Of a stretch of DNA of 64,000 nucleotides, positions 10,838 to 62,558 are shown piece by piece. Every line of letters starts with the position of its first letter. Positions within the stretch are counted from its first letter, which is position 1. Position numbers and translations under genes: made by a program. The DNA lies in the NCBI GenBank assembly GCA_017510405.1, contig JAFWNG010000023.1, positions 62,001 through 126,000 on the forward strand. The letters are read 5' to 3'. The notes below the pieces were generated by a model. That model did not search any database and had not been told where the DNA came from. It saw only the letters and a list, made by a program, of their open reading frames with translations. The stretch comes from Solobacterium sp. (GTDB lineage: Bacteria > Bacillota_I > Bacilli_A > Erysipelotrichales > Erysipelotrichaceae).

Positions 10838-11905
10838 TCAGCCCGGGAGTTCTCCGTTTGGATCGGGAGTCGGAAGGAGTGAAGGGTCGATTGTCGGAAC
10901 CGGTGTCGGTTCCGGCGTCGGTTCCGGCGTCGGTTCGAGGGTCGGCTCAGGTGTCGGCTCAGGTGTCGGCTCCGGAGTAGGCTCAGGTGTTGGCTCCGGA
11001 GTGGGCTCCGGTGTAGGTTCGGGTGTAGGTTCCGGCGTGGGTTCCGGTTCTTTTGTACAGATCAGTGTGTAGACAACGACTTCCGCCGGGGCACAGAAAC
11101 GGACATCTGCGACGGTAGTGCCGGTGCCGTTCGTTACATCGCATGTAAAGGAATCCTTTACGATATGCTTGCCGCGCAGGTAATCGGTTGCCAGCGGCGG
11201 CGTGTAGTAGGAACCGATCCAGTAATAGACCTGTCCGCCGTGACTGTGTCCGGCGATGTAGTAATCTGTCAGGTCAGCCGGTACTTCCGATGCGGTATCC
11301 GGTGTATGGCAGACAGTGAGTACATAGGTGTCGCGCGATACTTCCGAGTAGGCGTTGTCAATATTGCGTGAACCGTTCAGTCCGTTGTCGATGCCGACCA
11401 GCGTGATCGACTGGGATCCGCCGTTCCGCAGCGTGATGGAGCGGTTGTTCAGTTCCTCAAAATCAGCGAAATTGAGTACGAAGCGTACGGCAGAAATCAT
11501 CGAGTCATCCTTGCGGTCAAAATCGCCCATTACCGCGAACTTGCCGAGGGGAGCTTTGATGCGCTGCAGTTCGATGGCCAGAAAAGCGTTGTCCTCCGTG
11601 GATGAGGAGGCAGCGTAGTCGTACAGGTCGCCGCCGAAGATAACGACGTCGGGGGACAGACCGTTGATGCGGTCCACCAGCTTTCGGACGCGTCTCTGAT
11701 CCACAAATGTGCCGTAGTCCAGATCACTGAAAAACAGTATGTTGACGTGGTCGAGCTGTTCCGGGATCCGGTCGGAGGCCAGGGTCTCAAACCGGGCGGT
11801 ATAGCGCTGGGGTGATATATAACAGGCATTGAACCAGGTAAAGCCGAATGCCATCAGTATCGCAGCCAGGATCACGATGATCCATAGTTTGACGGTATTT
11901 TTCAA
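10838..11905 (-). CDS. Membrane-anchored calcineurin-like metallophosphoesterase with a Pro-Glu-Pro-Thr tail
   Basis: 355 residues. Residues 7-27 form one membrane helix that puts the rest outside the cell. The phosphoesterase motifs follow: FSDLDYG (~59-65), GGDLYD (91-96), GDFDR (127-131), CH at 200 and GHSHGG (219-224). The tail (285-348) is almost entirely EPTP repeats and ends shortly after, with no sorting signal or second domain. Related enzymes (YkuE/YaeI-like) cleave phosphodiesters, but the substrate here is unknown. The start is TTG at 11905, supported by AGGAGG eight bases upstream on the minus strand. Confidence 0.85.
   Translation of the reverse strand: MKNTVKLWIIVILAAILMAFGFTWFNACYISPQRYTARFETLASDRIPEQLDHVNILFFSDLDYGTFVDQRRVRKLVDRINGLSPDVVIFGGDLYDYAASSSTEDNAFLAIELQRIKAPLGKFAVMGDFDRKDDSMISAVRFVLNFADFEELNNRSITLRNGGSQSITLVGIDNGLNGSRNIDNAYSEVSRDTYVLTVCHTPDTASEVPADLTDYYIAGHSHGGQVYYWIGSYYTPPLATDYLRGKHIVKDSFTCDVTNGTGTTVADVRFCAPAEVVVYTLICTKEPEPTPEPTPEPTPEPTPEPTPEPTPEPTPEPTPEPTLEPTPEPTPEPTPVPTIDPSLLPTPDPNGELPG
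10862..11053 (-). repeat. EPTP-coding tandem repeat
   Basis: Imperfect 12-bp tandem repeat encoding (Glu-Pro-Thr-Pro)n, with one LEPT and one VPT variant near the 3' end. Such tails are extended, cross the cell wall, and vary in copy number by slippage. Confidence 0.9.
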
Positions 11906-56699: not shown

Positions 56700-59980
<3,281 letters not shown>

Positions 59981-59981
<1 letters not shown>

Positions 59982-60319
59982 TGGGAACGATCTATAAAGG
60001 ATACGGCTGGGGACGAACGATCACCGGCGAGACGAACGGCGGTTCGATCTATTCCGGTTATGGCTGGGGCCGTACCATCATCGGTGAATACGACAAGGAC
60101 ACGATCTATAAAGGATACGGCTGGGGCCGTACGATCATTGGTGAATACCGGGATGGAACGATCTACAGCGGGTATGGCTGGGGCCGTACTATCATTGGCG
60201 AATATGACAGCAGCACGGTCTATAAAGGCTATGGCTGGGGCAGGACGATCGTCGGGGAATACGACGGTGATCCGGCCGGTGCGGCAGCGCTTCTGCTGTT
60301 TGCCGAACTGCTGCGCTGA
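59981..60319 (+). CDS. GYGWG tandem-repeat protein, 112 residues
   Basis: I do not recognise this protein. Residues 2-96 are five tandem 19-residue repeats with core IYxGYGWGRTIxGE; variable sites are few. Repeat 1 to 5 alternate Lys, Ser, Lys, Ser, Lys before GYGWG, as if a two-repeat unit was duplicated. Synonymous codons differ between repeats while the protein is kept, which suggests selection on the protein. A hydrophobic 16-residue tail (ending ALLLFAELLR) follows. There is no signal peptide. The pattern suggests beta-hairpins in a propeller or solenoid. It is translationally coupled to the GH13 gene and followed by two more genes. Confidence 0.85.
59984..60268 (+). repeat. Five 57-bp tandem repeats encoding the GYGWG units
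   Basis: Units start at 59984, 60041, 60098, 60155 and 60212. Identity is highest in the GGCTGGGG core encoding GWG; many third positions differ. Confidence 0.93.
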
Positions 60320-60339: not shown

Positions 60340-60969
60340 ATGATTCCGATGACAGAGGAAGAAAGACAGCTGCTGCAGTCGGTACTGCCGCACAAACCGG
60401 GAAGAAATGATAACTCCCAGGATCATATTGAAGAAGCACTTCGGCAGCTGCGCAGTGCAAAAGACTATCTGGATCGGAAGTATCCGGGAGTTCCTCTTGT
60501 TTTTCATACATTTGATCCCCAGACAAAAATGACGGAAAGAGGATTTGCGCTGGTTTCAGTAAAGGGAAAATCAGCTGTATACAGAGTTCTGATCCGCCGC
60601 GCAGGAGACCGGTATATCTGCTCGGATACGCTTTACAGCGAGTTTATCCGCGAACAGTATGACGCTGCCCTGGAGCAGTGTCTGCTTCCGTTTGCCGGTC
60701 CGGTGAAAGTACATACCGTTTTTCATACTCCGGCCGGAGAGAAAATCAATGCGGATACGCCGCTTTCAGCGGTGCTGGCGCATCAGCCGAGACTTGTTCG
60801 GCACACAGATATTTATACAGAGATGCCGTTCGGCAATGAAGAGGAACTGATGAAGAAACTTCGGGAAGGAGGCTTCTACGGCTCTTATACCGTATTCCTC
60901 GGCGATGAAAAAGAGTTCAGTTTCCTGGAATTCCGCGTTCAATCGGAAAGAAAGAACGAAACAGTATGA
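60340..60969 (+). CDS. Hypothetical protein, 209 residues
   Basis: I do not recognise this protein. It is soluble with no signal peptide. A helical N-terminal part (~1-45) with a sequence like SQDHIEEALRQLRSAKDYLDRKY is followed by an alpha/beta region. AAGGAGG precedes the ATG. It overlaps the downstream DUF2974 gene by four bases (ATGA) and lies 20 bp after the repeat protein. The tight coupling suggests it works with the hydrolase that follows, for example as a chaperone, substrate or partner; that is inference. Confidence 0.82.
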   Translation: MIPMTEEERQLLQSVLPHKPGRNDNSQDHIEEALRQLRSAKDYLDRKYPGVPLVFHTFDPQTKMTERGFALVSVKGKSAVYRVLIRRAGDRYICSDTLYSEFIREQYDAALEQCLLPFAGPVKVHTVFHTPAGEKINADTPLSAVLAHQPRLVRHTDIYTEMPFGNEEELMKKLREGGFYGSYTVFLGDEKEFSFLEFRVQSERKNETV

Positions 60970-62393
60970 GTCTATCCGTAAAACAGCTGCTTCTGCTGAA
61001 TAATCTGATGTATCTGGAACCGGAGGAAGGACCGTTTCCGGATCTTCATTCCTTCAGCGGCAGGAAAGTGAGCGACTGGGTCTATTCGATCGATATTCTC
61101 GAGATCAACGATCCGGATCCCGAACATCCGATGATGACGACTGCGGCGGAGTGGCGGGATATCGTGCTGGCAGCACGCAAGGACAGAAGAATACTGCAGC
61201 TCAGGATCCTGAACGTCTTTACCGATCTGTCCAGAGACGGCGGCGGCTGCAAAAGTGCGGTGTTTATCAGTTTGGATACGGCGGATGCAGTCGTAGTGTT
61301 CAAAGGGACGGAGCTGGTCGTCGGATCAGCCCAGTGGAAAGATAATTTCATCAGCGGAAACGTGACGGATACACCGCATCAGATCCGGGCGCTGGAATGG
61401 TACCGGAAAGTATACCTGGAATATCATCTGGATCAGTTTGAGATCACGGTCACAGGTCATTCCAAGGGAGGCAATAAAGCAAAGTACATCACCGTGCTGG
61501 ATGATACCGTGGACCGCTGCGTTTCCTTTGACGGCGAAGGATTTTCCGACTGTTTCTTCAGCAAATACGGGATGGAGATCCTGAAGAATGAGCATAAGAT
61601 CGAGAATCACATGGTCGATTACGACTATATCAGCATCCTGCTGAATGATATCGGCACAAAGAAATATTATCTCGGCTATAATTACGGCTCCGGCGGATTT
61701 GCCGAAAACCACCTGGCAAATACATTTATGCGGTTTGATGATCAGGGCAACTTCTGGCTGGACGAGAACAAAGAAGGACGGCCGGCAGAGATGATCGCCC
61801 TGGATGAGTTCGCCAACAGCTATCTGCGCTCCCTAGACGATGAGGAACGGACATATGCACTGGAAATGATGAACGAACTGCTCAATGCGGTCCTTTCGCT
61901 GAAGCGGGGAATGAGCCGGGATGAAATCGTTAAGATCTTCCTGCAGATGGCGGAGAACGATGATACACGCCGGCATATTGCTTACTTTCTTGCTTATGTG
62001 ATCCGCTTTGAACAGAAATATCCGGCTGTGATCCGGCTGCTCACAAAACTGTTCGAACGCTTTGACATGGGCGGACTGGTGCAGTACATCGATCTGGTCA
62101 GCGGCATTCTGAACTGGAAGAAACAGATCCTGTGGGTGTCACTGAGTTTTGATACCCTGACGGCTGCGTTCCATGCCCTGCATCGCAGCGCACCCCAGTG
62201 GGTATGCCGGAATCTCGGTGCCTATCTGGAAAAAGCAGGACTGTATTTATCGGAAGAAGAGATCGCCATGCTGGCAGATGTCGTGGAAATGACCGACAGC
62301 TTTCTCAGAACAGTCGTCGTATTTGAGGACGGAACAGACAGAGATGTGCACGTTTCTGTAAGGAACAGCTGCAGAAACGATCCGCAGGAATAA
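60966..62393 (+). CDS. DUF2974 (Mbeg1-like) alpha/beta hydrolase
   Basis: 475 residues. The lipase-type nucleophile elbow GHSKGGN has Ser166; VVFKGTE upstream forms an oxyanion-like strand. These features match DUF2974/Mbeg1-like proteins, which are common in gut Firmicutes and whose substrates are unknown. The region beyond ~300 is helical and has no recognised domain. There is no signal peptide. It is the last gene of the GH13-repeat operon; the L21 leader promoter begins about 40 bp later. Confidence 0.85.
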   Translation: MSLSVKQLLLLNNLMYLEPEEGPFPDLHSFSGRKVSDWVYSIDILEINDPDPEHPMMTTAAEWRDIVLAARKDRRILQLRILNVFTDLSRDGGGCKSAVFISLDTADAVVVFKGTELVVGSAQWKDNFISGNVTDTPHQIRALEWYRKVYLEYHLDQFEITVTGHSKGGNKAKYITVLDDTVDRCVSFDGEGFSDCFFSKYGMEILKNEHKIENHMVDYDYISILLNDIGTKKYYLGYNYGSGGFAENHLANTFMRFDDQGNFWLDENKEGRPAEMIALDEFANSYLRSLDDEERTYALEMMNELLNAVLSLKRGMSRDEIVKIFLQMAENDDTRRHIAYFLAYVIRFEQKYPAVIRLLTKLFERFDMGGLVQYIDLVSGILNWKKQILWVSLSFDTLTAAFHALHRSAPQWVCRNLGAYLEKAGLYLSEEEIAMLADVVEMTDSFLRTVVVFEDGTDRDVHVSVRNSCRNDPQE

Positions 62394-62466: not shown

Positions 62467-62558
62467 GTTATCAGCCCTCAAGTCAGAGGGTCTGTAACCG
62501 CTCAGGAAAGGGTTTAAGAGAGAGATCTCCCCTTGATGGCGCGTCTTAAGATAATGAC
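62467..62558 (+). ncRNA. L21 leader (probable L21-binding autoregulatory RNA)
   Basis: About 100 nt of untranslated leader with short GC stems (CCCTC / GAGGG, and ACCGCTC / AAGGG-like pairs) before AGGAGGTG. Firmicutes commonly have an L21 leader at this place. I see position and stem potential; family membership is inferred. Confidence 0.6.

Follow-up and report, generated by a model that had tools for sequence, protein, structure and literature searches.

β-flowers come as four-, five- or six-fold forms, and a C-terminal hydrophobic helix is enclosed in many of them; the five-fold form has 96 residues arranged as ten short antiparallel strands in a shallow barrel (Durairaj et al. 2023; PMC10584680). 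The loop tips of β-flowers carry basic residues and Phe, some members have lipoprotein motifs, some are annotated as cell-wall-binding or MORN variants, and Tubby-like proteins either bind phosphoinositides or act as phospholipid scramblases (PMC10584680). The corresponding Pfam families (PF21784, PF21785 and PF21786) share clan CL0395 with the Tubby C-terminal domain; β-flowers are known solely from structure predictions, and the literature consulted here contains no demonstration of what they do. MORN repeats (PF02493; PMC7725318) are β-hairpin-sized units of 23 residues with spaced Gly and aromatic residues, a Y-x-G at the strand start, and the motifs GxG and YEGEW, and the choline-binding repeats (PF01473), which form a ββ-solenoid (PMC4471590), are hairpins of about 20 residues rich in Gly, Tyr and Trp.

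The gene compared here with these systems (hereafter REP) lies on the plus strand at 59981..60319 of the window, i.e., the whole stretch of 64,000 nucleotides of Solobacterium sp. DNA that was analysed. Its translation, without an internal stop, gives a protein of 112 aa with five 19-residue units and a nonpolar C-terminal segment. It shares with MORN repeats the hairpin size, the spaced Gly and aromatic residues and the Y-x-G, but its unit has 19 residues and no YEGEW, and no Pfam match was obtained; from the choline-binding repeats, similar in size and composition, it differs in its cytosolic location, the absence of an export signal and of a profile match, and another order of motifs. The units, all on the plus strand, are IYKGYGWGRTITGETNGGS (59990..60046), IYSGYGWGRTIIGEYDKDT (60047..60103), IYKGYGWGRTIIGEYRDGT (60104..60160), IYSGYGWGRTIIGEYDSST (60161..60217) and VYKGYGWGRTIVGEYDGDP (60218..60274); they start at residues 4, 23, 42, 61 and 80, so that every spacing is exactly 19, and account for 95 of the 112 residues (84.8%). 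The C-terminal segment, AGAAALLLFAELLR, follows at 60275..60316 (+). The first-pass annotation had described five near-identical 19-residue units covering about 85% of the protein, and this was confirmed far beyond chance: self-identity at offset 19 is 0.60, whereas the best value over offsets 5-59 never exceeded 0.30 in 5000 residue shuffles, and Tandem Repeats Finder (TRF) recovered the array in the DNA with periods of 57 (score 251) and 114 (score 318). It had also read an alternation of Lys and Ser before GYGWG as the trace of a duplicated 38-residue pair. The alternation is present in the window protein (K, S, K, S, K) but absent from the orthologues, where these residues are S, K, S, Q, K in one and S, A, S, S, S in the other, and self-identity at offset 38 (0.61) is barely above that at offset 19. 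Since only the window protein alternates, the data do not support a 38-residue duplication in the history of the REP family.

An orthologue with 71% identity (L006) was found in the MAG of Solobacterium sp. RGIG7085 from sheep rumen, on the contig that also appears as L003/L033 in G043, and a third member with 57% identity (L007/L135) in the uncultured Bacilli MAG BRZ_SL bin15. The three proteins (55-71% identity) have the same layout, each with exactly five 19-residue units and no indel in any of the 15 units, and the tail GAAA...LLL is present in both orthologues. Seven positions of the unit are invariant over the 15 units (Y2, G4, G6, W7, G8, T10 and G13), position 9 is Arg or Lys in 14 of them and position 5 is Tyr in 13. 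The claim that synonymous sites have diverged while the protein was conserved holds within the array as well as across the family: pS is 0.43-0.75 vs pN 0.13-0.26 between the units of the window REP, and 0.78-0.83 vs 0.20-0.33 between the orthologues, in which synonymous sites are saturated and dN is 0.23-0.43. The GC3 values of the three genes (0.65, 0.47 and 0.30) each track those of their own neighbours, which indicates that the protein was held while the DNA drifted to the habit of its host. In the second copy an AAGGAG precedes the ATG by about 14 bases, and the third has a clear Shine-Dalgarno sequence (TTGGAGG). On the minus strand, the frame opposite the window REP contains no stop, whereas it is interrupted by 1 and 3 stops in the orthologues; this open antisense frame is a by-product of composition.

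REP belongs to no named family: a convincing match was absent from every library searched with it (Pfam, NCBIfam, PHROGs, PADLOC and PDB sequences). With all three proteins as queries, no Pfam family scored above its cut-off and no β-flower family matched at E up to 10; PF21784, searched directly in REP's own genome, did not match REP, and neither did the CW_binding and glucan-binding repeat profiles of Pfam and NCBIfam. The acetyltransferase PDB 3efa (E 0.008-0.02) was rejected, because it shares with REP a single YRGHGWGR stretch only. Viral contigs, queried with the protein, the alignment, a profile of two units and a degenerate DNA pattern, contained no convincing relative. The DNA pattern matched 70 times, either by chance or in Gly-rich phage proteins. 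The phage collection gave no match, and the plasmid collection one marginal match to REP (21.5% identity, E 9e-3) and none to the third member. About 1650 scans of genomes, with REP or the alignment as query (partly overlapping sets, mainly of its own and neighbouring groups, which probably did not reach Clostridia proper), yielded no further member, and the weak matches at L002, L004, L005, L013, L139 and L140 were due to chance. The literature on the motif GYGWG yielded nothing relevant. REP is thus a real gene of a conserved, small and so far unnamed family, of which three members were found here; the first-pass description of a new-looking repeat protein under purifying selection agrees with a dN far below dS and with the negative library scans.

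A membrane anchor, which the tail had been suggested to form, is at variance with the hydropathy of the proteins. The nonpolar runs after unit 5 comprise 10, 9 and 12 residues in the three proteins, Kyte-Doolittle values reach 0.42-1.04 in the best window of 19 aa, the N-terminus has no hydrophobic segment (best window -0.36 to 0.06), and neither a signal peptide nor a transmembrane segment was detected by hydropathy; REP is cytosolic. The C-terminal segment is predicted as a helix (at low pLDDT in both AF2 jobs) with a core that is nonpolar on all faces, in line with the low hydrophobic moments (0.16, 0.30 and 0.07 in the same three proteins). The segment is hydrophobic all round but of insufficient length for a membrane span, in keeping with a buried plug.

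Measured against these properties, the layout of a β-flower fits REP better than that of a sugar-binding or fibre protein. Each 19-residue unit may form a short β-hairpin (“petal”), and five petals would close into a shallow ten-stranded barrel that AGAAALLLFAELLR could enter as a helix, forming a hydrophobic plug; the five identical tips, GYGWG[RK], would then together display a ring of aromatic and basic residues, to which every tip contributes its invariant Trp and an Arg or Lys, and almost every tip a Tyr. By analogy with the suggestion made for β-flowers and with Tubby-like proteins, the ring might attach to membrane phospholipid on the cytoplasmic side. In all three proteins the repeat array has 5 x 19 = 95 residues, close to the 96 of the five-fold β-flower, and is followed by a nonpolar segment (helical at low confidence); β-flowers are also mostly bacterial, with hairpin units near 19 residues and basic or aromatic tips. 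Among the differences, REP has no match to the Pfam profiles of the clan, the tip motif [DNEQ]XXG is replaced by [SKQA]G[YFC]G (positions 3-6, the presumed tip, conform to [DNEQ]XXG in 1 of the 15 units, and positions 14-17, the other turn, in 4 of the 15), Trp and Tyr take the place of Phe, the units are almost identical to each other, and there is no lipoprotein motif. REP therefore probably behaves as a five-fold β-flower does, but we do not assign it to the Pfam families as a proven member. For the complete proposal (a five-fold β-flower with a helix plug and a ring of tips for surface docking, phospholipid being the most likely target) we consider the chances about evenly balanced. Docking at the inner membrane face is the most likely action given the β-flower fold, and we regard it as possible, perhaps, though short of an even prospect. 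The strictest version, a near-perfect five-fold β-flower in which identical Trp/Tyr/Arg petals constitute a membrane- or lipid-docking ring, appears rather unlikely.

Structure prediction bears on this proposal and on its strongest competitor, an open right-handed β-helix or solenoid, in which each 19-residue unit would be a coil of two or three short strands, the aromatic ladders would stack, and the C-terminal helix would cap the open end, giving a rigid scaffold or a binding face. AF2 run on the three sequences gave a β-rich model with a helix at 101-110 and a pLDDT of 55 (32-55 among the five models, i.e., low confidence), and with the orthologue placed first no stable fold was obtained (pLDDT 36); both results are too weak to separate a β-flower from a β-helix. 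At this low confidence, the two jobs agree on units rich in β-structure and on a helix at the C-terminal end. The better of the two models has the form of a β-helix, an open solenoid, and its best Foldseek/VIA matches were the β-solenoids of C-CAP (Z 7.6) and pectate lyase (Z 7.1), with ice-binding proteins also among the weak matches; all Z scores were below 8, at 3-10% sequence identity, and the model itself is unreliable. Tubby and β-flower structures were absent among the Foldseek/VIA matches of this low-confidence model. Because the pLDDT is low and AF2 over-predicts solenoids, yielding unrealistic β-solenoids for repeat sequences according to PMC11795689, the β-helix model is not trusted. 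A coil of 19 residues is plausible for a β-helix. Unlike in open-ended solenoids, the number of units is fixed at five in all three members without an indel, which favours a closed ring, and the terminal segment, nonpolar on all faces, is explained by a plug in a ring but not by a cap, which would be amphipathic. The first-pass annotation had suggested a solenoid or a fibre: the solenoid survives as a live rival, though an unlikely one, and the fibre, a functional amyloid subunit with imperfect repeats as in the curli subunit CsgA, we consider improbable. REP resembles CsgA in its five short repeats, Gly-rich in REP, and the fibrils of CsgA and FapC were among the weak structural matches to the pLDDT 55 model, but with a Foldseek E of 0.87 or worse and with CsgA aligned at 8.9 A rmsd; REP moreover lacks a signal peptide, the neighbouring genes examined include none for secretion or nucleation, and its nonpolar tail is without a counterpart in the amyloid.

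The gene neighbourhood is the source of the other alternatives to the β-flower. Upstream of REP, at 58317..59981 (+), is a GH13 gene similar to alpha,alpha-phosphotrehalase (Pfam Alpha-amylase, 1.7e-139; NCBIfam treC, 539 bits, below cut-off), the stop codon of which overlaps the REP start codon in the window (TGATG), and the first-pass annotation had taken this coupling as a functional clue, with an aromatic ladder that could bind glucans. A glucan- or wall-polymer-binding protein serving the adjoining GH13 would be in keeping with the overlap and with Gly/Tyr/Trp-rich repeats that have the size of a hairpin (about 20 residues), but the overlap is replaced by a gap of 8 nt in the orthologue, a strong GH13 match is present in 29 of the 70 genus genomes yet adjoins REP in just two of these (the other 27 have no adjacent repeat gene), and the contig of the third member carries no GH13. 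GH13 is thus a neighbour of REP and not part of a module, the pairing not being conserved outside two genomes; with no CW_binding or glucan-binding profile match and no signal peptide, nothing beyond the aromatic content speaks for glucan binding, which we consider as improbable as the fibre. Downstream are P209, a gene for 209 aa without a family match (60340..60969, +), and an Mbeg1-like alpha/beta hydrolase gene (60966..62393, +; Pfam PF11187, 2.7e-12) with a weak score to the SA1320 family. The Mbeg1-like neighbour would agree with an accessory or immunity-type protein of type VII-exported modules with lipase-like or ADP-ribosyltransferase toxins, and so would two toxin-type genes on the contig of the third member, where REP has VWA, radical SAM, Sel1 and DnaJ_C genes as neighbours and, further upstream (L135 5062-8332), a Tox-GHH nuclease fragment and a 376-aa ADPrib_exo_Tox (ADP-ribosyltransferase toxin) protein with weak T7SS_signal similarity, followed by VWA. 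Also in favour of this role, a type VII-like locus lies about 24 kb beyond REP on the window contig (L137, G000:C43 about 145900-152000); it encodes an FtsK/SpoIIIE ATPase of 1126 aa, two WXG100 proteins and a small protein of 83 aa, but WXG100 was not found in the third genome. Furthermore, the P209 and Mbeg1-like pair occurs at varying places in 10 of the 70 genus genomes, in 8 of them without REP, and P209 (40% identity) evolves much faster than its Mbeg1-like partner (about 70%) and is less conserved than REP (70%), the conservation of which is unlike that of a polymorphic immunity protein; a role in toxin modules is therefore very improbable. Least credible of all is a RiPP multi-core precursor with one core per unit: it would account for the near-identical repeats, and a radical SAM gene is located about 3.5 kb upstream of REP in the third genome, but there is no leader, no modification or export gene adjoins REP in the two sister genomes, and the loop positions vary while the Gly/Trp/Thr framework is fixed, as in a fold. 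Since no neighbour is common to all three REP genes, the neighbourhood does not tell the function.

If REP is a β-flower, the fold would extend over a wider range of sequences, without a sequence link to the described families, and REP would be a minimal, ready-made system for testing what the β-flower fold does. The protein is small and almost perfectly symmetric, which makes it easy to approach by crystallography and lipid-binding tests, and it suits studies of how symmetric folds arise by duplication of a unit. It also illustrates that a repeat can resemble a sugar binder from composition alone.

Elsewhere in the window, a 12-bp tandem array at 10892-11048 reads on the minus strand as the (PEPT)n linker of an open frame, and is an ordinary low-complexity linker. 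An L21 leader (RF00559), with a score just above gathering, was identified upstream of rplU at 62486-62556 and is also present in the sister genome.
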